In this document: piece after piece, positions 25,170 to 62,940 of the stretch | Layout: the number at the start of each line of letters is the position of its first letter | Numbering within the stretch: position 1 is the first letter of the stretch | Assembly: GCA_961205875.1 (NCBI GenBank) | Contig: OY540810.1 | Span: forward strand, 20,894,001 to 20,958,000 | DNA from: Sialis fuliginosa | Lineage: Eukaryota > Arthropoda > Insecta > Megaloptera > Sialidae | Direction of reading: 5' to 3' | DNA length: 64,000 nt | Program-made: the position numbers and the translations under genes | Notes under the pieces: generated by a model | The model's database searches: none | Seen by the model: only the letters and a program-made list of their open reading frames with translations | What the model was told of the DNA's origin: nothing

Positions 25170-25218
25170 TCCCACTATAATATAAACCAAAACGTATATA
25201 TATATATATATATATATA

Positions 25219-25572
25219 TTTAAATATACCTATTTTGTAGGGGTTTTTTTTCAGGTCAAAATATTAATTAAAGAACTAAACCAATGTTCAAATCATTTTA
25301 ATTAATAGCGCTTATTTAATTTTCAACATTTTTGTCTTCATCAGAAATTAACAAATTATCACTATAAGAAATCATAAACATAAGTAAGTAACATAAGCAG
25401 ATGAACAAGATATTCCTAGATGTAAACATATTTTTTTTTTTACTTACAATTTAAACAGTAATTGGTGTGTACATTTGTATGTAGTAAAAGATGCATAATT
25501 ACATCAAAAAAATTTTTTTTTTTATTTTTTAATATTAAAAAGTACCCATTCTTGTACAAAAGACTAAAAATA
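25219..25572 (-). repeat. Inverted partial pseudo-LTR at the PLE 5' end
   Basis: This segment is the reverse complement of 25964-26319, the downstream half of the left pseudo-LTR, over about 355 bases with very few differences. Recognisable shared words are CAGGTCAAAATATTAATTAA and GTACCCATTCTTGTACAAAA. Transcription through both arms would give a long hairpin with a loop of about 390 bases. Confidence 0.9.
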
Positions 25573-25578
25573 TTAATA

Positions 25579-26355
25579 TTATTAATTTTTAAAAAAAATT
25601 TTTTCTAGGTTACCTTGTACTTAAAATTGACATTTAACATAGATAAGATTTTTGTTTTCCATAGATGTAAATAAATATAATTAAGTTTGTAATACTAGTG
25701 CTTTTCGTTCATTGAAACACTAGTAATTTTATTTCTTTTTTTTTTTTCATGTTTGTATAATAAATTTGTAACTATTTTTAAGTAAAAACATTTGATGTTT
25801 CTTGTTTAATTAAGCTTTATCTTATTATAAATACTTTTCAACATGTGATATAATGTGATACGAATTTTATTAATTTTTAACGTTTTTAAACTAAATTTTA
25901 AGTTTTAATTTTTAAAAAAAATTGTTTTTATATATTGTTTTATCTGTTTGATATCACATTTACATATTTTTAGTCTTTTGTACAAGAATGGGTACTTTTT
26001 AATATTAAAAAATAAAAAAATAAAATTTTTTGATGTAATTATGCATCTTTTACTACATACAAATGTACACACCAATTACTGTTTAAATTGTAAGTAAAAA
26101 AAAAAATATGTTTACATCTAGGAATATCTTGTTCATCTGCTTATGTTACTTACTTATGTTTATGATTTCTTATAGTGATAATTTGTTAATTTCTGATGAA
26201 GACAAAAATGTTGAATATTAAATAAGCGCTATTAATTAAAATGATTTGAACATTGGTTTAGTTCTTTAATTAATATTTTGACCTGAAAAAAAACCCCTAC
26301 AAAATAGGTATATTTAAATAATATCAAGATGGTCATATATATGAATACTAATATA
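25579..26355 (+). repeat. Left pseudo-LTR of the PLE
   Basis: Direct repeat of 29161-29938 (about 777 bases). It runs past the ORF start codon at 26329, so the first nine codons of the protein lie inside the repeat. In PLEs this region carries promoter activity and often a hammerhead ribozyme; a CTGATGA box is present at about 26195. Confidence 0.9.
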
Positions 26356-28998
26356 AAAAACACTGGGGATGATAAGTGTAATATGAACTCTCTACTCAAC
26401 AAATATAAAAATGAAGACATCCAAGATAGAATGAAACAAGTAAGAAAATTATATAGTGCAAAGGCAAGACTAGATATAAAAAAATTTTTCCTTATAAGTT
26501 GTAAAAAGAATAATCTTTTTCCTAAATTTATGAATAGTAAATTTGATAATAAAAAAAACTTTATTTCTTTAAGTAATAATAGCAATAAACATAGATATAA
26601 CAATATTTTAAATAATTTTAAGTACAAGCTATTAAATCTGTTAATTTCAGAAACCTTTAGTAATTTAAAAAATAACAAAAATTGTATTAATGAATGTCAT
26701 AGTTTGCTAAAACAATATCTCACTATATCTGATTTACAACAAGTTTTTTTCATTGAAAGTTCTATTTATCAATTTACTTATTATAAATCATTTAATGTTG
26801 TCATTAATAAATTTAATAAATTGAAGTCTGAAGCCATGGTTAATGAAAACCAATATATTAATAATTGTATCAATAGTTCTAAACAGATAGTAGATAACTA
26901 TAATAATAATAAAAATAGAAATTTAATAATAAGTAATAACCATGTTTCTAAATATAATAACAAATATAATTGTAAGCTACCAATAGATATTGAATTTAAC
27001 CCTCTTAAACACAATGAGGAGAATTTTGTTGTTAATTTAACCTCTAACAAGATACCAGATAATATTAACAATTTATTAAAACTTGGATCAAATTTCAATT
27101 TACCCTATAATAATAATAATCTACCTATCAATGATATGATTATTTCATTTGAATATGGTATTGACAACCTAGATGAAAATGAAAAAAACTTAATTAGAAA
27201 TAAATTTATATATAATGTTAATCAGTACAAGGATAACATGAAAAAAAACAATTTTTTGAATAATAAATATAATTGTTCTCTAATTAAGGATGTTTCTGAT
27301 GCAAGGAAGTTTTTTAAGGAGAATGAAAATATCAAAGTGATTCGTGCTGATAAAACTAATAAAACCGTATTGATCGATAAAGTAGATTATGATAATAAAA
27401 TGTATGAGCTGTTAAATGATGGTGAAACATATCTTAAAATACATAAAGACCCCACTAATATTTTCCAGAACAAAAACAATAACATTATTCAAAAATTTTA
27501 TGAAATGGGTTATATTGATCAAAATTTGAGTAACCAACTTAAAGTGCATAATAGTACTCCTCCACAAATTTACGGGTTGATAAAATTACATAAAGTAAAT
27601 AATCCTGTCAGACCTATAGTTGCTTCATATAATAGCCCACAACAAAAATTGTCAAAATTTTTCTCTGATATTTTAAAAAATATTACTGCTAATAATAATA
27701 CCGTGAAAGACTCGTGGGAATTCCATGAATTTATTAAAGATTTTCATATACCTAATAAATATAAATTAATTTCACTTGATGTTAAATCATTGTTTACTAA
27801 CATACCTATTGATACTACTATTGAGATTATCACTAATAAATGGGAAGAAATAAAAAAATACACTAATATTGAGAAGGACGATTTTATTGATGGTTTGAAA
27901 TTTTGTTGCAATACGTCATATTTCCAGTTTAAAAATCAATTTTATTCACAAATTTATGGAGCACCTATGGGTTCATCTCTATCTGTTGTTTTGGCTGATA
28001 TTATTATGAACGAACTACAAGATTCTGTTTTGAAAAATGTAGATTATGAGATTCCTTTTTTTAAAAGATATGTTGATGACATCATTACAGCAATACCTTC
28101 GGATAAAATTGAAACTTTATGCAATAGCTTTAATTCTTTTCATAATAGATTACAATTTACTTATGAACTTGAAAATCAAAATAGAGAAATTAGTTTTCTA
28201 GATATTAAAATTTTGATTAATAAACATAATAAAGTTGAAACCATATGGTATACCAAACCTACCTGGTCCGCTAGATATTTGAACTACAATTCTAATTCCT
28301 CTATTGAACATAAACGTAATGTTATTACTGCTATTTTAGACCGGGCAATTAAATTCACTAATTTTAAATATAGAAGTCAAATACTCAACAAAGTTTACAA
28401 TATTTTCTTATTAAATGGTTATCCCATTAATTTTCTTAAAAACACTATAAATAATAGACTCAAAAGTATACTTTATGGACATAATAAAAATAGTAAAAAT
28501 TTGGCTGTTGCAGATAATTCCAATTACTCTTATGATGATCAAATATATTTTTCATTCCCGTATATACCTATTTTATCTGAAAAAATGAAAAGAGTTGTTT
28601 CAGGACATAATATAAAAATGATAAACAAAAATAAGTATACTACAAAAATTTTTTATTCTAAATTGAAAAATAAAACTGATAAGATGAAATGTTCTAACGT
28701 TATTTATAAACTTAAATGTTCTTGTGATTATTCTTACTTAGGGCAATCTAAACAATACTTGCAAAAGAGAATCAACAGTCATAAATATGCTAAAAATGAA
28801 GTTACTGCACTTCGTACCCATATACAACAGACTGGTCACGAAGTTGAATATGGTGATGTTGAAATTTTAGATTTTCAGCCTATTTTAAAAAAAAGATTAC
28901 TTAGTGAATCGTTACATATCTTAAAAGAACCTAAATGTCTTAACTCTAGAGAAAATCTTAATCACCTAAAAGAATCATATCTAAATTTAATTAAATAA
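26329..28998 (+). CDS. Penelope-like reverse transcriptase with C-terminal GIY-YIG endonuclease
   Basis: This 889-residue protein should copy the element's RNA into DNA and nick the target. Visible parts in order: an Asn/Lys-rich N-terminal region (1-330); the PLE-specific block RADKTNKTVLID (about 340-351); an RT block QIYGLIKLHK...NPVRPIVASY (412-434); motif A LISLDVKSLFTNIP with catalytic Asp (480-493); motif B YGAPMGSS (543-550); motif C YVDD (581-584); FLDIKI (623-628). A GIY-YIG domain follows: VIYKLKC (791-797), YLGQS (803-807), Arg814, His818 and Glu860, plus a Cys/His set (C797, C799, H831, H837) seen in PLE endonucleases. Length and C-terminal endonuclease fit the Penelope/Poseidon or Neptune groups. 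The frame is uninterrupted, has no introns, and the ATG lies within the left pseudo-LTR. An upstream ATG was not seen in frame. Codon use is extremely A/T-biased (AAT, AAA, ATT). The family call is firm; activity is inference. Confidence 0.95.
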   Translation: MVIYMNTNIKNTGDDKCNMNSLLNKYKNEDIQDRMKQVRKLYSAKARLDIKKFFLISCKKNNLFPKFMNSKFDNKKNFISLSNNSNKHRYNNILNNFKYKLLNLLISETFSNLKNNKNCINECHSLLKQYLTISDLQQVFFIESSIYQFTYYKSFNVVINKFNKLKSEAMVNENQYINNCINSSKQIVDNYNNNKNRNLIISNNHVSKYNNKYNCKLPIDIEFNPLKHNEENFVVNLTSNKIPDNINNLLKLGSNFNLPYNNNNLPINDMIISFEYGIDNLDENEKNLIRNKFIYNVNQYKDNMKKNNFLNNKYNCSLIKDVSDARKFFKENENIKVIRADKTNKTVLIDKVDYDNKMYELLNDGETYLKIHKDPTNIFQNKNNNIIQKFYEMGYIDQNLSNQLKVHNSTPPQIYGLIKLHKVNNPVRPIVASYNSPQQKLSKFFSDILKNITANNNTVKDSWEFHEFIKDFHIPNKYKLISLDVKSLFTNIPIDTTIEIITNKWEEIKKYTNIEKDDFIDGLKFCCNTSYFQFKNQFYSQIYGAPMGSSLSVVLADIIMNELQDSVLKNVDYEIPFFKRYVDDIITAIPSDKIETLCNSFNSFHNRLQFTYELENQNREISFLDIKILINKHNKVETIWYTKPTWSARYLNYNSNSSIEHKRNVITAILDRAIKFTNFKYRSQILNKVYNIFLLNGYPINFLKNTINNRLKSILYGHNKNSKNLAVADNSNYSYDDQIYFSFPYIPILSEKMKRVVSGHNIKMINKNKYTTKIFYSKLKNKTDKMKCSNVIYKLKCSCDYSYLGQSKQYLQKRINSHKYAKNEVTALRTHIQQTGHEVEYGDVEILDFQPILKKRLLSESLHILKEPKCLNSRENLNHLKESYLNLIK

Positions 28999-29160
28999 AT
29001 TTTCTTTTTTCCTCTTTCTTCTTTTTTCTACGTTTCTTTTTGCTTGTATTGTATGCCATTTTTTGGTTTTTCTATTAATTTTATCTTTTTTCATTTTTGT
29101 TTGATTAGGTATATGTTTTAGTTTGATTTTGATGGTTTTATGTTCCTTTTTTTCTCTCTT
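28999..29160 (+). other. PLE tail between the stop codon and the right pseudo-LTR
   Basis: About 160 bases, T-rich on the plus strand (TTTCTTTTTTCC-type runs). No frame. It is internal to the element because it lies between the ORF and the direct repeat. Confidence 0.7.
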
Positions 29161-29930
29161 TTATTAATTTTTAAAAAAAATTTTTTCTAGGTTACCTTGT
29201 ACTTAAAATTGACATTTAACATAGATAAGATTTTTGTTTTCCATAGATGTAAATAAATATAATTAAGTTTGTAATACTAGTGCTTTTCGTTCATTGAAAC
29301 ACTAGTAATTTTATTTCTTTTTTTTTTTTTCATGTTTGTATAATAAATTTGTAACTATTTTTAAGTAAAAACAATTGATGTTTCTTGTTTAATTAAGCTT
29401 TATCTTATTATAAATACTTTTCAACATGTGATATAATGTGATACGAATTTTATTAATTTTTAACGTTTTTAAACTAAATTTTAAGTTTTAATTTTTAAAA
29501 AAAATTGTTTTTATATATTGTTTTATCTGTTTGATATCACATTTACATATTTTTAGTCTTTTGTACAAGAATGGGTACTTTTTAATATTAAAAAATAAAA
29601 AAAAAAATTTTTTTGATGTAATTATGCATCTTTTACTACATACAAATGTACACACCAATTACTGTTTAAATTGTAAGTAAAAAAAAAAATATGTTTACAT
29701 CTAGAAATATCTTGTTCATCTGCTTATGTTACTTACTTATGTTTATGATTTCTTATAGTGATAATTTGTTAATTTCTGATGAAGACAAAAATGTTGAAAA
29801 TTAAATAAGCGCTATTAATTAAAATGATTTGAACATTGGTTTAGTTCTTTAATTAATATTTTGACCTGAAAAAAAACCCCTACAAAATAGGTATATTTAA
29901 ATAATATCAAGATGGTCATATATATGAATA

Positions 29931-49414: not shown

Positions 49415-50171
49415 ACAGAGTGTCTCGTAAACATACCGAGGAGTTGTCAAGAACATTAAACAAACGTTTTTTTGTTAATAAACCGAAAGACCCCATACTA
49501 AAGCAATGAATTTTGCCTTTTGACTGAAATTTTTTGTGAAAATGGTAGTTCAAAGTGTGCTAATCAGAAGTTGGTGCAACCTATGAAAATCTATAATTCC
49601 TGCTCCAGGGGGTATCAAAACATTTTATGTTTATATTTATTTTCATCATCTAAAGGGCCAACTTTTAGTAAAAGTAAAGAATAAAAAGTACTTCCAATTA
49701 GTCATTGTACACAAATAATTTTTTTATAAAATTTGTTATAAAAAATCAAAAAATATTTCTTTATATTGTCTGGTTAATTCTAAAAACTCTTCATTCTATG
49801 CAAATTTTTCTAAAACTTGATCCTTTAGTTTGTTATTGTCCAAAAGGGGGTCCCTAGACCATATAAGTTTAAGAACCGCTGCTTTAGGAGATAAACATAA
49901 AAATATACATAAACATGGTCTTCTAGAGCTGAAATTATGGATTTTCGTAGGTTGCATCCATTACAACTTTGAATCAGCATACCTTGAACTATAATTTCCC
50001 CAAGTAATAAAAAATTTCAAAGAATCCATTGCTTTTGTGCGGGGACCTTTCTTTTGCTCTACTGCTAAGACAACTCGTTTGCGTGCATGAGTTTATCAAC
50101 AAAAAAAAACGATTATTTTAATGTCCACGACAACTCCTGAAGTTTGTCGGTATGTTAACGGAACATCCTGT
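49415..50171. mobile_element. Foldback MITE H, copy 2 (complete)
   Basis: The left end ACAGAGTGTCTCGTAAACAT and the reverse complement of the right end (ACAGGATGTTCCGTTAACAT) begin arms of about 300 bases: for example CTATGAAAATCTATAATTCC (about 49582) against GGATTTTCGTAGGTTGCA (about 49939). TA flanks both ends. The right arm carries a foreign hAT-like fragment at 49846-49881. No coding content. Confidence 0.8.
49846..49881 (-). mobile_element. Embedded hAT terminal fragment
   Basis: On the minus strand it reads CAGCGGTTCTTAAACTT, then a GGTCTAGGGACCCCC block. CAGNGGTTCTTAA followed by GGACCCC is the classic terminus of many hAT/Charlie-like elements. It is absent from the corresponding left arm of the MITE. 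Confidence 0.5.
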
Positions 50172-50429
50172 ATATGCATATCCTTTGTAACACATTACAA
50201 GAGAAATAGTTATGAATACAGCCCTATATTCATCGTCGAGACGAAACTTTTCTCGGTCCGTGAATTACCTTAAGAGGGAACACCACCGTGATGGAGTGAA
50301 AAATACCTTTCGTGCGTTTAAAAAAATACATTTAATAAATTATTTTAGGATACTTTGAACTATGTTTATACAAATGTATATAGAAAAATATTAACAAATA
50401 AATACTTTTTTGTATATTATATTTATTAT
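50172..50429. other. AT-rich stretch, nothing recognised
   Basis: No frame or repeat. Confidence 0.4.
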
Positions 50430-50605
50430 ATTATCCTATATATAATAAATAGGACTATAATATAAGCTATCTATCGGCGTTTTATTTATTGCTCTACAAT
50501 AATTAGTTCTGGAGATATAAGCATTCCAAATGTGAAATATTTTTGTTGCATTTGTTTCCCCGAGGTTATCAGGAAAGACACAGAACTACGTAAAAAAATG
50601 GAAAA
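50430..50605 (+). repeat. Dispersed repeat, inverted relative to 13710-13880
   Basis: Same order of shared blocks as described for 13710-13880, on the opposite strand: ATAAGCTATCTATCGGCG, CGTTTTATTTATTG, TTAGTTCTGGAGATATAAGC, then CAGAACTACGTAAAAA. Confidence 0.7.
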
Positions 50606-51418
50606 ATCATGTTACAAAGTAGTTACATATCTATATTCTTTTTACATCTATTAATATCATATAATAAAAAAAACATAACAAACTTAGCAAACTAATCTAA
50701 CATTTTCTAAGCAGTATTCCCCCGCCCCCCAAACATCCCGTATTAACCTTATATTTGTCTGCACAAGGCGTATCTCTCCAATCATCGGTGCATGAAAATA
50801 TATTGGTTGTTTGCAAATTTAATAGCAGTTACCAACACAACATAAAACAGAAACACACACAAACATGCATGTGTATCAGGTAGATAATGTTCGATTAAGT
50901 TCCACACATTCGGTAAAGCATCGGGAAGATACAGGATCGTAACAGGAACAATGTTAGCATAATCTTAAACTATGTTGTAATAGAAATGATATATAGTTCT
51001 AATTGGGTGAAGGGTTAATGGTTTGACCCCAAAGCCCCACCGAATTTGAGAATATGCATTATTTAACTTAATAATCACGATAGATATAATGATAATAATT
51101 GAAATAATAGATAAATGAAAATAATAACATTAAACAAATTTTGAGCATTTGCGAATTTTTTTTGTGAGAGCTGCTAAAATTACTATAACATGGCACCTCC
51201 AAACGACTTTGCATTTGTTTCTTGTTTCTAGGTGCTCATAAAGCTTTCAAAAATCAATTCATTTACGAAAGTCTGAAACTATCAGATTATTATAAATATT
51301 TAAACTGATAAAGTTTTTAACAAAACGGTGTTTTAGAATATTGCATATCATTAATTAATATGTTTTTTTATTTGGGTGTTCTGTCCATCGAGTCGCTAGA
51401 CTCATTTAGACTATAATA
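50606..51418. other. AT-rich stretch with no supported gene
   Basis: A short C-rich spot (50719-50728). No frame or repeat of note. Confidence 0.4.
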
Positions 51419-51813
51419 TGTACAGTCGCCTGCAGAACTCGTCTGGCACCCTAAAGGCTAGAATCGCTTACAACAGATTTCAAATTTAAAGACAAACATC
51501 ATCGGTTATCTTTTTCTATCATGTTTAATATATTTAAATACTAAAATTCGGAATATCAAATATTTATTGCCACAAAATTGACGTATACAATTTTCAATAG
51601 ATTACATAATAATTTAATTGCACAAATATATATGAGTACTATAAACGAAGAGTAGTTCTTTATCTAGCAAATGAATTTCTAAATATCTGTCTTTGTTTGA
51701 TACATGGAGAAATGATTTAAATATTATAATAATCAAATGGGAGGAGCCTACTAAGTTTGTGATAAACGAAAATGAATACAAACTGCAAGACGATTAATGC
51801 AGGTGACTGTACA
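51419..51813. mobile_element. 395-base MITE with TGTACAGTCGCCTGCA ends, TA duplication
   Basis: The left end TGTACAGTCGCCTGCAGAA and the reverse complement of the right end (TGTACAGTCACCTGCATTA) begin inverted repeats of about 33 bases including TCGTCT-GCA. TA lies on both sides (51417-51418, 51814-51815). No coding content. Confidence 0.8.
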
Positions 51814-52078
51814 TATGGTTTTCATTCAAATTGAAATGATATTATGTATTTATAGAGAAAAGTGTCCTAAATAGTGCTTCATAACTGATTTCAATATTTT
51901 GAAAACTTTTTGAAATAGATATAAACAGTCAAACTTCTAGGTATTACAAAGTTTTTTTTAAGTAGATTGTCTGCCACTATCCATATAAATCGTTAAAAAC
52001 ATCAGCCTTTGAGTTAAGAACTTTAATGTTCAATTAAATAATACAATTGTAATGAATGAATCAACACACTTCACTTAT

Positions 52079-52478
52079 TAGAGCTGCATACGAGATGAGT
52101 CGAGATGAGACTTACCTGATTCTCGTCTCGTCTCGGTTTTTGGAACTGAAGTCTCGTGAAGTCTCGTCTCATAATCGTCTTGTACAAGAAATCGAGACAA
52201 AAAAAAGATCGAGACTGAAAAAATATTGGTGAATTTTTATACAAAAATTTTTTCTCCTATTATTCTAATAAATAATTCTAAGTTTAAAATATAACGAATC
52301 TTATTATATAAATTTTACTGTAATTATTGATTAAAAAATTAATAACAAAAAATGAATTTTGACAAACTGTTTTTAAAAATCGAGACTCTCGACGAGACAT
52401 AAATAAAGTTTTTTGAAAATTTCAGATAATCTCGTTTCGGTCTCGTTTCATCCAAATCTAATCGACATACAGCTATAA
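52079..52478. mobile_element. 400-base GAGAC-rich hAT-like MITE
   Basis: Ends TAGAGCTGCATACGAGAT and, inverted, TATAGCTGTATGTCGATT are imperfect terminal repeats. Subterminal parts are crowded with GAGAC/GTCTC words (CTCGTCTCGTCTCGG, AAGTCTCGTGAAGTCTCGTC, GAGACTCTCGACGAGAC). This matches a hAT MITE type seen in insects. Related fragments are at 9600 and 22199. Confidence 0.65.
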
Positions 52479-52536
52479 CACGTATGATTATTTCATATTT
52501 ACCCAATCAAAGATGTTGGTTGTAACATTATAATTT

Positions 52537-52870
52537 ACTAGTTGTTATACGCGTGACTTCGTCCGTGTGATAATATAAATTTCTGTTCAGTTTCGATTTT
52601 AGTTTCGCATTTACTCGCTAGATGTCTACGCGAAAATAGTATAACCTATAATACGTACAAATGTAACACACTTATTTTTTTATCTAATAAATTTTCGGGA
52701 TATAATGTAGCCTATGCCCTTCCTCAGTATGCAAGCTATTTTCCTGAAAATTTTCATCAAGATCGGTGTAGCGGTTTAACCGCGAAAAGGTAACAAACAG
52801 ACGAACAGAGAGACAGACACTTTTTTGTATTTAGAACATTAAAATAATATTAAAAAATTAACGATAAATA
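52537..52870 (+). repeat. Diverged SINE/LINE-like repeat (GACTTCGTCCG type)
   Basis: Begins ACTAGTTGTTATACGCGTGACTTCG and later has ATAATGTAGCCTATGCCCTT, TTTTCATCAAGATCGG and ACAAACAGACGAACAG. The same succession occurs in abundant RTE-like or SINE repeats of Hemiptera and Lepidoptera. There is no frame. Confidence 0.6.
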
Positions 52871-53509
52871 ATTAGTAAAATCTTTTCCTGATAATTCAAA
52901 ATTGAGTTCCGTCCCTGGGAAGACGCGGGCAAGCATAGTGAGCGCGCCTAGCACCACATGATACCGCGTATCTCATCATATTAAACCTGTGTCTGATGAC
53001 GTCAGCCATTCTTCACCTGTTCACGCTACGTTATTTAATCATCAAGCTACCTCAACTATCGACCGTAATTCAGCGTTAGCATTGTAATATAACAGTTATG
53101 GCTTTTACGATATTTAGTCCCTCCATTGTGTGTACTGTTGTATATTATCTCTATTTTATTGGTTTTTGCTATATGTAAAGAACGCGCACTAATCAATATG
53201 CACAGATAAATTTAATGTATAATTTAAATACATGTAACAAACAACAAATACATGTATGTATGTTTTTATCGTCTTCCATATTTTACTGTTTAACGCTTAT
53301 TTCATTGTATTTGAAATTTTATTTAATTATTATATATTACGATTTTTTAGTTAATATGTTTGTATGTGCATTTGTAATTTCCAGCAGTATTAAGATTTTG
53401 AACTAGAATTTTACAAATGTTTTCTATAGGGTATCAAAATTAAATTACATTTGTATTTTGATTTTATTACTGATATAAAGAGAAATCAGCGAAGTAAGGG
53501 AGATTATCT
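52871..53509. other. Unassigned; GC-richer at 52905-53060
   Basis: GGGAAGACGCGGGCAAGC and GTGTCTGATGACGTCAGCC are candidate unique host DNA. TGACGTCA (52998-53005) is a perfect CRE palindrome. No exon recognised. Confidence 0.35.
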
Positions 53510-53900
53510 TCATAAGGGAATATTTCACTACAAAAATTGTAATGATTTTTACTATAGAAAAATGAATACTCTTTAAAAAAATGTGTAAAATTTTCACGTT
53601 ACATGCGTTGATCCTAAGATATTTTGATAAATTTTGGGAGACCACACCCTACACACGATTTTTATATGTGTCAATTACTAACCAAACTCAACTAAGAAAC
53701 CAGCTTTCATTAAAATCGGTTCAGTGATTAGATTTTAGAGGACAGACAGTCAGACACTCTCACACACTTTCGGATGAAAACGATCTGTCTTGACCTAAAA
53801 CGAAAAGATCAAGTGATTTTTAAATTAGAGATAATTTTTTTTCTGATTTGATAAACGATCACATAACTTCCCTTATCATTTGGATATGGCGAAGACATAA
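53510..53900 (+). repeat. Repeat A, copy 3, continuing into an element J-like phrase
   Basis: Aligns with the middle and right of copy 2 (GAATATTTCACTAC, ACACACGATTTTTAT, TTTCATTAAAATCGGTTCAG). After a CAGACAGTCAGACACTC tract it reads CTTGACCTAAAACGAAAAG, ATCAAGTGA and AAACGATC, the same order as in element J at 23595-23645. Repeat A and element J therefore share a segment. Confidence 0.6.
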
Positions 53901-54567
53901 AATTAAATAGGTTTACTCTAACTATTATAAATCATTAAAAATAGATGATGATGTTTAATTTCTTATAAACAATATATTCGACAATATCCATATAATAGGT
54001 GATCAAAAATAATGCTTACGTAAGTTTTTTCTAATTAATTATTTTTAACGTTAACTGAAACCAGTTTCGGCTGTTGTAATTGTTTTTTCGGTATTAATTC
54101 GATAAAATATCAACGTACTTTGCTACTTCTTATAAATATATTACAAAAAACTTACGTAAGGATAAGAGGGGTGACTTTATACTTACAAAGGGGAAGAGAG
54201 TTTAAAATTTCCAAAATCACCCTTTCGTAATTAATAGATGCTTCCTTAGGTATTTGTTTTACTATTTTGAAATGTTGCCAACAAAAATGTCTCCAAGTAT
54301 ACCTACTACTAAAAATGCACAATACGAACGTAAATATACACAATATATGTGACAAGAAGATTTGGAAACGAGCGAAATGAATGGGTTAGATCGGGGACCC
54401 ATGTTACTGACATTGACAAGGATCGAGTCATTAAATCGGAAATAGGCCGGACAGATTGTCGGAAGAATCAACGCTCGTTGAACAAAAGAAGTGAAGTTAT
54501 CGAGACTGTGTATTAGATCAAGTATGAAACGAATAGTTCAATTAATAAATACATTTTTTATCTAGTA
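53901..54567. other. AT-rich stretch with no supported gene
   Basis: Two overlapping minus-strand frames (54152-54471) carry no family signature. Confidence 0.35.
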
Positions 54568-57500
54568 GTCCGGACGTTAAGAGCGATATTTCGACTAATC
54601 TCTGCACTTTTTGATAGAAGCATGAAAATTGGTATAGTTGTACATTAAAACAAAACATACAAAACTAGAAATGGCGACATTTCAAAAACCCGTGTGGTCC
54701 CCCTTTTAGGGGCAAAAATATCTCCGCGGATTTAGTTTTTCTTATTTATCTCGCAAATGGTTATCCGGACGACACAAATAGAAGACACTCAAAATAATGT
54801 TTATTAGATTCTAAACAAAAGTTGTTATTATAAATTTTACGATAAGAGTCACCGTTGCCGTATAAATGGGGGTTAAAATTATGAGAAAATTTGCGCGCGA
54901 CGTGAAACTTGCGTTCATGCTCAAATATCTCGTAAACGGGTTTTCTCACGAGAAAAATTAATAGGACAAATATTAAAGAGCAGACAATTCTCTATCTGAT
55001 GTATGAATCTGTCATCCTGTAAAATTATTTTTTAATTAATTTTGGTCACTACAAGTAGAATGACATATATAACAATTTAAGAAAAGTAACGGTTCTCGTC
55101 CAATTTTGTTTTCGTTATGTATAATTAAGCACTTGTATAGTTAAGTTATGATTATTTTATGATAATTTATGAATATATAGAGAAAGAAAGAGAAAAAAAT
55201 TGTGTAAAATTGACCTGCATTTATCAATAAATCAAAAAATAACTATACGAACAAAAAAAATTTTTTTTAATTATAAAGTACACCCTGTATAATATATTAT
55301 ATGTACTTATGTTATAAATATGACAAAACATTAAAATTATAAATATTTATAGGCTACAAACATGTTTTCTATTCTCTTTAGCTGGAAAAACTTATATAAA
55401 CACTAGTGCAGAATCTCTTGATAGCTCCTATTTGTTAAACAAACCTTCAAACGCCCAAAACTTTAGGATGAATATATTCGTTATAAAGTTTAGAATAATA
55501 AACAATTAATTATTTTTTACTTAATATTGTACATTTTGAGTAATTTGAAGTTGAAATTGATTACTATTAGACGATAACAGTAAGAATTGTGTCGGATGTA
55601 TTCTTTTTTGTTTCAAATCTCGTGAACGGTCAATTGGATGTAAAAAATGTACTGAAACTGAATTGTCGGCAATGAAATTTTGAATAATATTTCGGTATGT
55701 TTCACATGCCAAATATTAAAGTTTCCGAGTAAATAAAGGTCAAAGTTACAAATTAATTAATATATACATGAACGGTGTAAAGCAGGGCATATTTGTCACA
55801 CAATATTTTATGACCAGTTTTTTACAATTCAAAAAATTATAGAAAATATAATAGAGTGAACTTATATCTACCATACATAAATTTTACTTTTACAAAAAAT
55901 ATGATAGTTTTACTGTTAAACATGATTTCTCAGCATTGTTACTTTGTATGATATTTTTAGTATGTATGGTAATTATTATTTTTTATTCCGGCCGATCATT
56001 AGGAATTTCTCTTTATTTAAGTTTTGTAAATAATATTATAAATAAAATATAAAAATCGTATTACACAATTCAAATATTGCATTTTAATAGAGAGATGAGT
56101 AAAATGCACAGATGTATATGTAAATGTATGTATATATTTATCGTATTATTTTCAAAAATTAAAATTAAAAAATTTAAATAAAGAAAACTTGTGGAGATAA
56201 TATGTTAACCTCTGAATGGGGGACCGCACAAGATTTGAGGGTAGAGTCATATCTAGGTTTGTAGAGGTGGGTTTGATGTACCTACAACTGTATAAAATTT
56301 TATATTTCCATCATGAATCGCAGGGTTGAATTCCTAATGATCGGCCGGAATAAAAAATAATAATTACCATACATACTAAAAATATCATACAAAGTAACAA
56401 TGCTGAGAAATCATGTTTAACAGTAAAACTATCATATTTTTTGTAAAAGTAAAATTTATGTATGGTAGATATAAGTTCACTCTATTATATTTTCTATAAT
56501 TTTTTGAATTGTAAAAAACTGGTCATAAAATATTGTGTGACAAATATGCCCTGCTTTACACCGTTCATGTATATATTAATTAATTTGTAACTTTGACCTT
56601 TATTTACTCGGAAACTTTAATATTTGGCATGTGAAACATACCGAAATATTATTCAAAATTTCATTGCTGACAATTCAGTTTCAGTACATTTTTTACATCC
56701 AATTGACCGTTCACGAGATTTGAAACAAAAAAGAATACATCCGACACAATTCTTACTGTTATCGTCTAATAGTAATCAATTTCAACTTCAAATTACTCAA
56801 AATGTACAATATTAAGTAAAAAATAATTAATTGTTTATTATTCTAAACTTTATAACGAATATATTCATCCTAAAGTTTTGGGCGTTTGAAGGTTTGTTTA
56901 ACAAATAGGAGCTATCAAGAGATTCTGCACTAGTGTTAATATAAGTTTTTCCAGCTAAAGAGAATAAAAAACATGTTTGTAGCCTATAAATATTTATAAT
57001 TTTAATGTTTTGTCATATTTATAACATAAGTACATATAATATATTATACAGGGTGTACTTTATAATTAAAAAAAATTTTTTTTGTTCGTATAGTTATTTT
57101 TTGATTTATTGATAAATGCAGGTCAATTTTACACAATTTTTTTCTCTTTCTTTCTCTATATATTCATAAATTATCATAAAAGAATCATAACTTAACTATA
57201 CAAGTGCTTAATTATACATAACGAAAACAAAATTGGACGAGAACCGTTACATTTCTTAAATTGTTATATATGTCATTCTACTTGTAGTGACCAAAATTAA
57301 TTAAAAAATAATTTTACAGGATGACAGATTCATACATCAGATAGAGAATTGTCTGCTCTTTAATATTTGTCCTATTAATTTTTCTCGTGAGAAAACCCGT
57401 TTACGAGATATTTGAGCATGAACGCAAGTTTCACGTCGCGCGCAAATTTTCTCATAATTTTAACCCCCATTTATACGGCAACGGTGACTCTTATCGTAAA

Positions 57501-57758
57501 ATTTATAATAACAACTTTTGTTTAGAATCTAATAAACATTATTTTGAGTGTCTTCTATTTGTGTCGTCCGGATAACCATTTGCGAGATAAATAAGAAAAA
57601 CTAAATCCGCGGAGATATTTTTGCCCCTAAAAGGGGGACCACACGGGTTTTTGAAATGTCGCCATTTCTAGTTTTGTAGAGGAAGGTTTAATGTACAACT
57701 ATACCAATTTTCATGCTTCTATCAAAAAGTGCAGATGAAAAGTTCTTAACGTCCGGAC
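54568..57758. mobile_element. 3.2-kb foldback element (near-perfect palindrome)
   Basis: The left arm 54568-56007 and right arm 56329-57758 are reverse complements over about 1.43 kb with very few differences, except in the outer 100 bases. Termini are GTCCGGACGTTAAGA with TA outside both (54566-54567, 57759-57760). The arms contain CACCCTGTA (left, about 55280-55288; mirrored right), like the end of a CAGGGTG-type element. Frames of 62-63 residues occur as mirror-image pairs and have no family signature. No transposase is present. Confidence 0.85.
55988..56348. mobile_element. 361-base inner element at the palindrome centre
   Basis: CCGGCCGATCATTAGGAATT at the left and its exact complement at the right form 20-base terminal repeats around the 321-base unpaired centre. 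The centre's right side (GGGGGACCGCAC, then CTAGGTTTGTAGAGG, 56218-56268) resembles the subterminal part of the outer element (GGGGGACCACAC, CTAGTTTTGTAGAGG, 57633-57682), and the terminus resembles GTCCGGACGTTAAGAA. Inner and outer elements thus belong to one family. Confidence 0.65.
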
Positions 57759-57760
57759 TA

Positions 57761-58000
57761 TAGATAACAAGGTTGACACAGTCAGATTTTTTTTTGTAAA
57801 ATTTATTTTCTCGTATGAAATAAATAATACAATTTCTAAATTATTTTTGATCTAGGTAGGTGTAATTTATCTAGAGCTTGCTGCAATATTTTAACTAATT
57901 TTAAGTGAAAAAATGTTCTTTATTATCTCACGAATAAATCTGCATCAACAAAATATTTGTATTTTACTTTTATAATATTCATGTGATTATATTGGAGTCT
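57761..58000. other. AT-rich stretch, nothing recognised
   Basis: No feature. Confidence 0.4.
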
Positions 58001-58019
58001 ACATAACGTTACTGGCTTA

Positions 58020-58145
58020 TTGTTAGTTTAAAGTTAGGGTTGGATACCTCACCTGTCGAACTGCCCGTGCCGCGCCACTGGCTTGCATTCGTGCGTACGT
58101 GTGTGTGTGTGTGTCTACGATGCCGCGTAAAAGTAACTCCCACAT
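58020..58145. other. GC-richer patch with a GT microsatellite (58099-58114)
   Basis: CTGCCCGTGCCGCGCCACTGG precedes the GT run and CTACGATGCCGCGTAAAAG follows. An ATG at about 58119 opens a 17-codon frame (MPRKSNS...) that cannot be assigned. Possibly host DNA. Confidence 0.3.
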
Positions 58146-59623
58146 TAATATTAATTGTTCAATCATTTGATCTTTTATTACAGAATGAATTGTGAAGCTT
58201 CGAGTATTATTCTGAACGTCAACACTCAAGAATTACATGGACTGAAAAATGATTTCCTCGTTATTGTTGTTTCCGAACATAAACATTTCAATTACTGTCT
58301 GTTAATATTTTGACAGGTGTTCTCTGAATAAAATTCTTACTCATTGTTTCTTTTTTTTTATTTCTTACATTTCTGCCCTGCTGTGTCAAAGTTTTCAATC
58401 GTTTGTATATGAATGGGAATTTAATTTTTGTTATTCAATTAAAATAAATATTGTTTTGGGTAGATTAATAAAAGCAAAATTATTGACGTTTAAAAACAAC
58501 TACAAAAAGTAAAGTACGAAAAAAATATTTCAATTTTTCTATTCTTCCAATGTAAGATAATTGATTGGCAGAAGTAAATAACTTTTCATTATCAAGAACG
58601 TAATAAAAGATATACTTATCTTATCTTTCTTACACGCATATTATATATTATTATCATATTAATTTTTTTTTCATTATTGAAAAATATATAATAGGTAAAA
58701 AATGCAATTATTTGTTTTCTTAGTGGCGCAGCAAAAAGTCGCAGTGCCGCAGTGGTTCAGTTGTCAAACAAATATAACATCTATAATTATAGCTTAGCGC
58801 CATATCATTTCGCCGAGATATAGTGCCCCCCCCCCCCTACACACATAATCCTCGTTGCTGATATAAGTTGTTAAAAGAATCGATCTCATGATATCTCTGT
58901 CACTTGGCAAATTTAAACGTTTATCTACAATTTATAAGAAATGTTTTATAGTTTTATAACATCATTTTACAAACAATACAAAATATTCAATATATTTGAC
59001 TCATAAATAAAGCTCAAAAGTAAATAAATACAAGATAAACATGAAGAGAATATCTTGCGTTGTTTATACCTCATACAATATGCAGGTCACAAACAGATGA
59101 CAAAGACAACATGTTCCACGTAATATCAAACAATAAAAAGCAAAATTCATGCTTATATAAAAGGGGCATACACTCAAACGTTTGCAGGCATACATTTTTT
59201 ATAACGAAAAATTCCCAAAACGTGCATAATAAAATCACGTAACATTGTATAAAGAACATACCCACCCACCCCCTCCCTCCAACTGCCCCGTGTTGTTTGC
59301 TTGTTCTATGAGCATTTTCACATTTGCCAGTTGCAAGTTAAATTTTATTGTCAGTAATTTTAAGTGGTAATTATTCAAGTACCTACCATTTTCTTCAAAT
59401 TCTTGAAAAAACTGTACCAGTTATTAAATATTTTAATATTTTATAATGTTTAATCAATCTTAATACACTTATGTAGGTAAATTAATAATGTATAATTTTC
59501 ATGATACCTAAAGCCTGTATTACACTTTAAGATCATTTCTAAACTTAATATGATCGCATTGATATATAATAGATACTTATAATTTTTTTTGACTAATCAG
59601 TGAATAAACTATTTTATATTATA
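58146..59623. other. AT-rich with a 12-base C run and C-rich spots
   Basis: The C run is at 58826-58837 after GGCGCAGC and GTGCCGCAGTGG phrases (58724-58757). CCCACCCACCCCCTCCCTCC is at about 59261-59280. No gene. Confidence 0.35.
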
Positions 59624-59890
59624 TGAAACTAGCGATCCGCTCGTGTCTTCAGTCGCGTTGTATTTGATTTTATAAACAATATAATATAATTTATAAAATT
59701 GAAAAATAGTGATACATGTGTATTTTTATTTTAATACAAAAATGTTTTAGATGAATTTCATCCTTATAATAAGTATGTAATTATGCAGTTAATGTTATGT
59801 CGGTGTTATATTTTTAGGTCCAGGGGTTTAAGCTGGACGTTGAGGAGTCAGTTACTCAGGACTTCTCTTTATATATCTTTGTGTATTCAA
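59624..59890 (+). repeat. SINE/LINE-like relic
   Basis: Begins ACTAGCGATCCGCTCGTG, related to the GACTTCGTCCG start at 52537, and ends GTCCAGGGGTTTAAGCTGG then GTTACTCAGGACTTCTC, TATATATCT. The 3' part recurs at 38890-38975. Confidence 0.5.
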
Positions 59891-61199
59891 AAACTTAAAC
59901 ATTTTTTTTCATTGTTTAGTATTTAAGTATTTGTACATGGGTATGTAATAGTATGTATATTGTATGTGTTTTGAGTTATTCTACAGGAACACCAGGAGGA
60001 TTAGGATGTTGCTGATGGGCCATTCATAGCAGGTTTTTACAAACATGAGGAGAGGATCTAAAGAATGTAGATGTAAGGGTACTTGGGGGTTGTTTAGCTT
60101 TATAAAAAAAAATGTTTTTCAAAAAATTTTAAAGGTTAAAATCAATCCGAATCACCCAAAAATTGACGATAAAAAAATTGTATCAATAAATTAAACTTAA
60201 CATTGCACGTACATTGCCAATTGTAACACAGACTTCAATGAAACCTGATAAAATAACATAAATTTTTACAATTACATATTCATTTATTTGTATATCATCG
60301 AACAAAAATTGATTGTGATGTATGAAAATAGATTTTAACTAAATTAATTTTAAAATAATGTAAAAAATTAAATAGATATCTATAAAAATTGATACAAAAT
60401 TGATCGTAAGTAAATATTATTTTTAACAACGACATTTCATTAAAAATATTAAATTGATCCAGCATAATAGAAAAGAGGAACATAAAAAAGTTTTATAAAC
60501 TTTTCTATCTAGAGATTTTAATATACTTTTATATACAATATACATACATGATAATTAAATTTCAATATCCTGGAACATGAGAAGTATACACTGGCTTATA
60601 AAATAATTATAAATGATCATTTTAATTACAAAATTATTGATAATTATATTCTACTCAATAATTTTATAAAATTGAACATTTTATTTTCATGTTTGATTAA
60701 TAATTCCAGCTAATAAAATTAAACACTGATTAATTATAAATATAATAATTTGGCTAAGTTTTTTCACATGAAGAAAAATTTATGATTCATTTGACGGCGC
60801 TTCATCTTTTTAATTATATAATTAACTATATATGTCATTATTTTTAATAAGGATGTCTCAGATTAAACACAGTTATCATTTTGCAAACGCTATTTTATGA
60901 CATAATAATAGATAAAGTAGAATCATGTCGCCTAAAGTCTGCCCTTGAGAATCGATTGTCTCAATAGAAATTTATATGTTTTTTATTAATAATGATTGAT
61001 CAAATTAAACTGTACTAACTTTCAGTTCTCGATACGAGAAAATATGTTGCTAAGATTATTATTTCTATAAGAAAATTTCATCTCAGTTCAAAGTTCAAAG
61101 AAAATTTGTTGATGAAACTTTGTTATTATTTTTTTTGCAAATTTTAACATTTTTTTCAAAAAGTTTCTTTCTGATAAAAACTCCTTAATTTCAATGCAG
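59891..61199. other. AT-rich stretch, nothing recognised
   Basis: No supported gene or structure. Confidence 0.4.
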
Positions 61200-61990
61200 T
61201 AAGATGAGAAAGTAACAATAAATGTTTGGGCGCAAATAACTCGATCAAAAATAAACATACAGCAAAACAAAAAAAATAAAATCGAAGAAAAAAGTCTGAT
61301 TTACAAAAACAATCCATTAGATTTGGTAAAAAAATGTATCTCGGCCCATGGAGGATCTCAAAATTGTTATAAAATTTTGCAATTTTTTTCAGTGTTTCAT
61401 AAAAAAGATGTTATCCTGAGGTACAAAACAAATTTCTACTAATTATTAGCTAACAAGAACACTTTAGCTTCTTTTTATAATATATATATGCTTTAGTTCT
61501 CTCATAGCAATATGGCATGTTTGATCGCATAAGGTACACAAAAAATCTAAGCGATTCAGGGTTTCGCAAATATTTTAGGGATACTTTTAACTTAAATAAA
61601 ACATAGACATTTTATGCAATTTTTTAGGTCACTTTTAAATGGATTTTACAGAATGAAATTTTTATATCAAATGAATAACCAAAAGTGCGTTAATCTGCCC
61701 TTGGATTTTTTTTACGATTATTTGTTCCTTAGTTATAGGCGCTCAAAGTTAAATATGTGATTTTTGCGTTGATTGTAAATAACTTGGTCAAAAATGGTCG
61801 TATTAGAAAAAGATCAAATAAAAGAAAAAAGTTTGATCTATAATACAAAAATCATTTGATCAAAAACAAATTTCAAGTCCCTTGGAGCCTCTAAATATAT
61901 ATAAATTTTTGAAAAAAAAAATTGTTGTTTTATCTTCCGAAAAGAGGTTATCCTGAGAGATATTAAAATTTTCAATAAACTATTAGAAAA
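61200..61990. repeat. Diverged direct duplication, units about 560 bases apart
   Basis: Units at about 61228-61450 and 61778-61990 share AAATAACT-GTCAAAAAT, GAAGAAAAAAGT-TGAT, a (C/T)CC-TGGAG-C-TCT block and GGTTATCCTGAG or GTTATCCTGAGG, in order. AT-rich, non-coding; probably an old repeat with internal duplication. Confidence 0.55.
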
Positions 61991-62940
61991 CTAGAATATC
62001 AAGATTTACAACCGTTTTTTTAAAACTGTTATACGACCATTTTTGCGGAGATACAGCCATTCAAAAATACCTAAAATATTTAAAAAAATTTAGTGATCCC
62101 ATAATTTTGAACTTTAGTGTATACATATTTACGATTTTGACGCAAAATTACAAATATTTGCATATATCTAAAACAACAATGATTACCCTATGTTACGTAG
62201 TTAAATTCTAGATATAGTATGAATATATTTATAAATCAATAAATACTATTTATAATGTACAATAATATGTTGCATTTAATATTGATTAAATATATGTATG
62301 ACCAAATTCAATTTAATCCTGTTAAGCTGGTATGCTAAAACGAATTCGTTGACATCTGCTTTTAATAACACATATGAATGACTCGACAATATTTATACAA
62401 TACGAAAGTAATAGTCAGCGGGTGTGGTGAACCCTTCAAAAATGTGCCGTATCTGATACAAATATCGGTTCTATTGAATTTGTGGCACGCATAAGTATGT
62501 ATATATGTAGAATGGTATCTTTATCTCTTTTCTTTATTATGTATTGAAATTTTATTAACATGTTCAGAAATATAAAAGTCTATTCTCCCAAATATACAAT
62601 ATTTATAAAGAAAGTGAACATAATAAATGTTTATGATTAAATACTATATTTTATGATCTCTGCAAAACATTTTTGCGAGTAAAAAAAAGGAAAATTTCAG
62701 CGAGCAAAAAAATGTATTTTATGCACTCGCGGACTAAAGAAGATTGGTAGCCGGATGAAATATTAGTTATACGCCCCTTCCCTGAGAAAAATTAGTATGT
62801 GCAATTGAATGTCCTTTTTTTGTTGTCAGGTCAATTTTGGTGACCCTTAAAAATTACTTTTGCGCACTCCTGTAGTTTGTGAAGATCTTTTTTTAGTCCT
62901 CATTTTAACATTCCCCTGTACCTTGCTACTCGGAGTGAAC
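61991..62940. other. AT-rich stretch with no supported gene
   Basis: Slightly GC-richer near 62700-62940, with no recognisable frame or repeat partner. Confidence 0.4.

Follow-up and report, generated by a model that had tools for sequence, protein, structure and literature searches.

Structure of the palindrome

The window, which is the whole stretch of 64,000 nucleotides of Sialis fuliginosa DNA that was analysed, contains a 3.2-kb palindrome with near-identical arms at 54568-57758 (ends included), as the earlier note had described. The arms, at 54601-56007 and 56329-57735, are 1,407 nt each with a complementarity of 99%, and are separated by a spacer of 321 nt. With the terminal TA dinucleotides included the element occupies 54566-57760 and reads TAG - TAGTCCGGAC...GTCCGGACTA - TAG. 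Near the tip the left arm contains an 11-bp stretch with no counterpart in the right arm, and approximately 85 bp inward from the tip the arms differ by a block of about 7 bases; elsewhere the differences are scattered single substitutions. The highest-scoring tandem repeat within the arms reached a score of only 43 (10 bp x 3 copies). No open reading frame of 100 aa or more overlapped positions 50000-62000 of the window (standard code, ATG/GTG/TTG starts), and as the element contains no 100-aa open frame the protein that moves it must be encoded elsewhere. The individual features are given in Table 1.

Table 1. Positions of the element and its parts within the window.
Feature	Positions	Strand	Basis and remarks
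TSD TAG, left copy	54563..54565		sequence; exact 3-bp duplication at the same place in 30/31 copies
L-type tip TAGTCCGGACGTTAAGAGCGATATTTCGACTAATC	54566..54600	+	17 outermost bases common to the other end; L/R differences fixed 17/17
Left arm	54566..55983	+	outermost ~185 bp similar to M's inverted repeats (M, central element)
Central element M including flanking TA, shortened	55984..56352		tips TATTCCGGCCGATCATTAGGAATT, inverted at the opposite side
Right arm	56353..57760	-	inverted repeat to the left arm
R-type tip, minus strand = TAGTCCGGACGTTAAGAACTTTTCATCTGCAC	57729..57760	-	sequence
TSD TAG, right copy	57761..57763		sequence; family-wide duplication test

A separate structure is present at 25212-29907 of the window, where inverted repeats of 362 bp (99%) surround an 896-aa open frame at 26308-28995. 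This frame contains what we take to be reverse-transcriptase-like stretches and a GIY-YIG-like tail, and probably belongs to a Penelope-like element; a Pfam search of the frame gave nothing significant (best E 0.26).

Copies of the element in the genome

The genome (392 Mb, 20 contigs) was searched using the left arm, giving at least 43 matches (40 scored out of 591 candidates), 30 of which formed 15 close pairs on opposite strands when counted by hand. The 16-base end TAGTCCGGACGTTAAG gave 80 forward and 96 reverse exact matches, while the control, the same 16 bases read backwards, gave 0 + 0 matches in the same genome. A search for other elements with the same ends had been named beforehand as a check, and the 176 tips found, together with the arm matches, answer it positively and do not bear out, for this genome, the description of the structure as rare. 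Among the 100 tips listed of the 176, 70 made up 35 inward-facing neighbour pairs and 30 were unpaired under the neighbour rule; there were 2 same-strand neighbour pairs and 0 outward pairs within 6 kb. The inward pairs among these listed tips spanned 3,150-3,340 bp in 23 cases out of 35, with an overall range of 316-4,979 bp. The length of the family copies peaks near 3.33 kb, and there are a few shorter deletion derivatives.

Loci were read if they were close to the window arm or centre, or had an exact tip. The 20 loci fetched and the window gave 21 copies, of which 18 had both ends; one end was not found in L009, L017 and L027. Complete copies were picked by a pattern tolerating only few tip variants. 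No transposase or autonomous partner was seen at 30 tip loci searched 1.5 kb to each side for family homology and open frames, with incomplete coverage of the longest two tip pairs, of 4,779 and 4,979 bp. An open frame at L050, presumably THAP-like, sits outside the element, and the copies at L012 and L026 adjoin frames that we take to be histone-like genes (H2B, and H1 and H2A, respectively).

At positions 207-1828 of L027 the tip listed above as not found is interrupted by a different palindromic element of 1.62 kb, with the 3-bp target site duplication GTT. This element has the ends TAGTGCGAGAGC...GCTCTCGCACTA and arms of 573 bp at 98%, and was also seen in the flanks of L010; a further palindromic family, with TAGT ends, is therefore present in the genome.

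Near-perfect inverted repeats are a recognised assembly hazard, so the palindrome could in principle be an assembly or library artefact in the form of a fold-back chimera. However, the copies lie on many contigs within different flanking sequences, and they share a consistent asymmetry of the tips, 3-bp duplications and the length peak near 3.33 kb. An assembly artefact is thus very unlikely at the level of the family, and as an explanation of the palindrome it is scarcely credible.

Target site duplication

An exact 3-bp duplication was found outside the TA in 26 of 27 copies, made up of 18 loci together with 9 tip pairs from contig C1, and in all four further copies, giving a total of 30 of 31 with L026 as the exception. 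The duplicated 3-mers were of 19 different kinds among 26 copies and include TAG, CCT, CTC, AAT, TAA, CTT, GCG and TGG, indicating that the insertion targets are varied. Offsets of 0, 1, 3 and 4 from the GTCC end gave 3-mer duplicates in 0, 0, 0 and 1 of the 31 copies, respectively, and no duplicates of 6-10 bp were found in these copies at any offset tried (0-4 for 7-10 bp). L024 and L025 lie on different contigs and have a left flank identical over 400 bp and a right flank that matches at 92% over 132 bp, to be explained either by a segmental duplication or by both copies having inserted into the same repeat. As these two copies are not independent, a fairer count of the 3-bp duplication is 29 of 30.

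TA was present on both sides in all 31 copies examined, as the earlier note had described for the window copy, and it was at first a candidate for the target duplication. It was dropped on the evidence of L011 and L020: with their flanks joined, these loci align to unfilled relatives of the repeats in which they lie, and the unfilled relatives lack the element, the TA and one copy of a 3-mer (CTC and TAT, respectively). A comparison of L010 with L027 was less clean, with 12 gapped bases of which 5 are accounted for by TA and one 3-mer. Because the 3-bp duplication lies outside the TA and the unfilled sites agree with it, the TA belongs to the element, so that the TA flanks stand while their reading as a target duplication does not. 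This bears on whether the family is a palindromic non-autonomous element of the Tc1/mariner type with a TA duplication, like those of Callosobruchus maculatus. The universal TA would suit such an origin, and palindromic elements of up to 2.2 kb in this seed beetle are described as Tc1-Mariner (PMC10849321), but the TA travels with the element and the duplicated bases are found outside it; by its 3-bp duplication the family falls outside Tc1/mariner, and that assignment is regarded as very improbable.

The terminal bases GTCCGGAC are identical to the target motif of P elements (PMC3276498), and could be taken for an 8-bp target duplication made by an element of the P superfamily. Against this, GTCCGGAC is present at 40 of the 42 ends of the 21 complete copies while the outer flanks differ (the end pattern allows one variant position), the variant GTCCAGAC occurs only at the L end of two sister copies at different loci (L016 and L018), and the two unfilled sites lack GTCCGGAC. 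A P-superfamily duplication thus deserves almost no weight, and the likeness to the P-element motif is probably a coincidence. The dispersed copies, fixed ends, 3-bp duplications, unfilled sites and absence of a 100-aa frame all agree with the suggestion in the earlier note that the structure is a mobile foldback element.

The central element

The full-length central element, M, is 506 bp without TA (L013, element positions 1419-1924) and lies at the dyad of the palindrome; the window copy of M is shortened relative to that of L013. M has inverted repeats of about 178 bp that resemble the outer ends of the element. Alignment of the M end with the outer R end extended over at least 185 bp with a score of 138, compared to a mean of 34 (sd 5.7, maximum 57, n=500) for shuffled controls, and each tip of M is bordered externally by TA, in the same register as the outer tips. 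Using a 153-bp asymmetric core, the orientation of M was assigned as '+' in 16 of the 21 complete copies and '-' in five (L014, L018, L023, L024 and L025), corresponding to at least 4 changes on the tree as judged by eye.

Insertion of M into a ready-made palindrome was considered and rejected. In L013 the bases bordering M (its TA included) are TTT and AAA, which represent the inverted arms and not a direct duplication; this speaks against insertion weakly, as conversion between the arms could erase a duplication.

A copy of M is also found at C11:892724-893220 (L062), where its first 18 bp are missing and its opposite end extends into 21 bp of arm. Over 509 bp it is letter-identical to the neighbouring element 1.4 kb away. 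This copy is flanked by two identical 539-bp stretches of non-element DNA in inverted orientation (the whole at L062 957-2572; C11 ~892180-893800), with a gap of 5 bases to one of them and of 24 bases to the other. This single locus is read as a fresh inverted duplication that pivoted on M and was later trimmed asymmetrically, although the palindrome around M may be an assembly error. Read as a duplication, the locus suggests that M can seed palindromes.

Divergence and recombination of the arms

The differences that distinguish the L and R tips are confined to alignment columns 16-33 and were fixed in 17 of 17 complete copies (L010 omitted). With L066, L067, L068 and L070 added to these 17, one L tip and one R tip were present in each of the 21 complete copies compared. 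The 11 neighbouring tip pairs of contig C1 comprised nine L/R pairs, one L with a variant R tip, and one R/R pair (L041/L042), which belongs to a nested case with the outer L tip L040. Since each of the complete copies compared has one L and one R tip, they trace back to a single palindrome in which the two tips already differed.

The L and R arms within one copy differed by a mean of 0.66% (21 copies). When L and R arms were randomly re-paired the mean was 2.64%, and none of 10,000 permutations, in which kinship is ignored, was as low as 0.66%. Without exchange between them, the L and R arms should have diverged no less than any two copies have. The arms of L014 had no differences over 1,230 sites while the closest other copy was 2.2% away, and those of L016 also had 0 differences over 1,230; L021 had 2 differences over 1,230 (nearest copy 1.8%) and L022 had 4 over 1,228 (nearest copy 2.0%). 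The distance between the arms was smaller than the distance to the nearest copy in only 7 of the 21 copies, and each of the remaining 14 has a relative within 0.6% to which its arms are at least as close as they are to each other. In the tree the two arms were strict sisters in 6 of 21 copies, while in L019/L020, L024/L025 and the group L026/L028/L066/L067/L068/L070 arms of the same type (L or R) tended to cluster. Such clustering would follow if both arms are transmitted faithfully during transposition and are homogenised at a slower pace. L018, in which M is inverted, and L016, in which it is not, differ by 0.08% between their nearest arms, and the opposite orientation of M without a change of the tips fits a crossover between the arms. 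Taken together, the low difference within copies and the inversions of M point to recombination from arm to arm.

An alternative is that each copy had its palindrome re-formed by a recent inverted duplication, without any recombination between the arms. The arms of L014 and L016 that show no difference would be explained in this way, and the C11 locus hints that inverted duplications around M do happen. However, rebuilding would place one and the same tip at both ends, yet all 21 complete copies compared carry one L and one R tip, which makes the palindrome ancestral; the inversion of M without a change of tips also fits arm crossover rather than rebuilding. Repeated rebuilding is therefore considered unlikely, and given the same tip asymmetry the proposal that the window copy is the product of a recent inverted duplication is not supported. 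The earlier description of the palindrome as recent is correct in so far as the arms look young, apparently because they have been homogenised, but the palindromic form itself, judging from the shared asymmetry of the tip sequences, predates the divergence of the copies compared.

Model for the family

The evidence gives good confidence that the window copy belongs to a family of non-autonomous DNA transposons that are near-perfect palindromes of about 3.3 kb, produce a 3-bp target site duplication and have arms that appear to be homogenised by mutual recombination. The architecture is tip, arm, M, inverted arm and tip. A transposase supplied from elsewhere would recognise the ends, probably within the ~185 bp that they have in common with M, and the element would move by a cut-and-paste mechanism. 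Once it is inserted, its arms may pair and recombine, which would homogenise them to within about 34 bp of the tips and occasionally invert M. The identity of the arms would in that case reflect ongoing mutual repair rather than the fresh formation of a palindrome.

The origin of the palindrome may lie in M itself. A broken end carrying M would fold back on the ~178-bp repeats of M and prime DNA synthesis, turning a fragment with one tip into an immediately mobile mirror-image transposon with two, after which recombination would maintain the palindrome; the C11 locus would be a second product of this process. This origin is put forward tentatively, as a possibility that we consider rather doubtful. 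Seeding by M would be like the known process in which a short inverted repeat beside a break seeds a large inverted duplication, and would differ from it in that the seed would be one transposon lying inside another, with a product able to move. If M does seed palindromes, this would provide a concrete path by which a broken element gives rise to a new one with two ends.

Large palindromes are expected to be unstable, yet dozens of palindromic copies persist in this genome. The copies form a natural series for measuring gene conversion and inversion between arms, in which the tips serve as fixed markers. The family also serves as a warning that the identity of the arms is an unsafe basis for dating inverted duplications, and that a TA beside a transposon need not be its target duplication.

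Comparison with other transposons

Palindromic non-autonomous transposons are a kind already known; no description of the Sialis family, or of palindromic transposons seeded by a nested element, was recognised in the searches made of the open-licence literature. The Foldback and Galileo elements of Drosophila have very long inverted arms that frequently lack coding sequence, and long inverted arms are also present in the Sialis family. Foldback arms contain internal tandem repeats, and the target duplications of Foldback and Galileo are 7-9 bp, whereas the Sialis family gave no exact duplications of 7-10 bp in 31 copies at offsets 0-4. The ends of CACTA/EnSpm elements begin with CACTA or CACTG, while the Sialis ends begin with TAGTC / TAGTCCGGAC. 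The 8-bp duplication of the P element superfamily is likewise absent. Harbinger elements duplicate TWA.

Constrained 3-mers are also described for other PHIS elements (Pangu ANT, NuwaI CWG, NuwaII TNA; PMC4482050), in contrast to the varied 3-mers of the Sialis family (19 kinds in 26 copies). Target duplications are given as 2-4 bp for CMC (PMC4482050), 3 bp for Academ (PMC5199201) and 3 bp for Zator (PMC10045372), so that the Sialis family matches CACTA/EnSpm (CMC), Academ and Zator by the length of the duplication only. MITEs are described as under 800 bp (PMC5199201), while 23 of the 35 listed tip pairs of the Sialis family span 3,150-3,340 bp. The composite KolobokP elements (PMC9587614) were considered and set aside, as their long repeats are described as direct and not inverted.

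Among the 32 MITE-like clusters of Anopheles gambiae that have no known relatives, 6 are reported to be palindromic repeats (PMC3212995). In Callosobruchus maculatus, 5.2% of the genome is reported as large non-autonomous elements assigned to Tc1-Mariner, which are often fully palindromic with consensus lengths of 654-2,199 bp (PMC10849321). As far as that description goes, the likeness to the Sialis family is one of structure only: both are non-autonomous, dispersed, of kilobase scale and almost fully inverted, in an animal genome. The Sialis family differs from the elements so described in its length of about 3.3 kb, compared to at most 2.2 kb, and in its 3-bp duplication, compared to TA. 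In addition, the Sialis family has a related element at its dyad and evidence for the homogenisation of its arms, features known here for the Sialis copies only.
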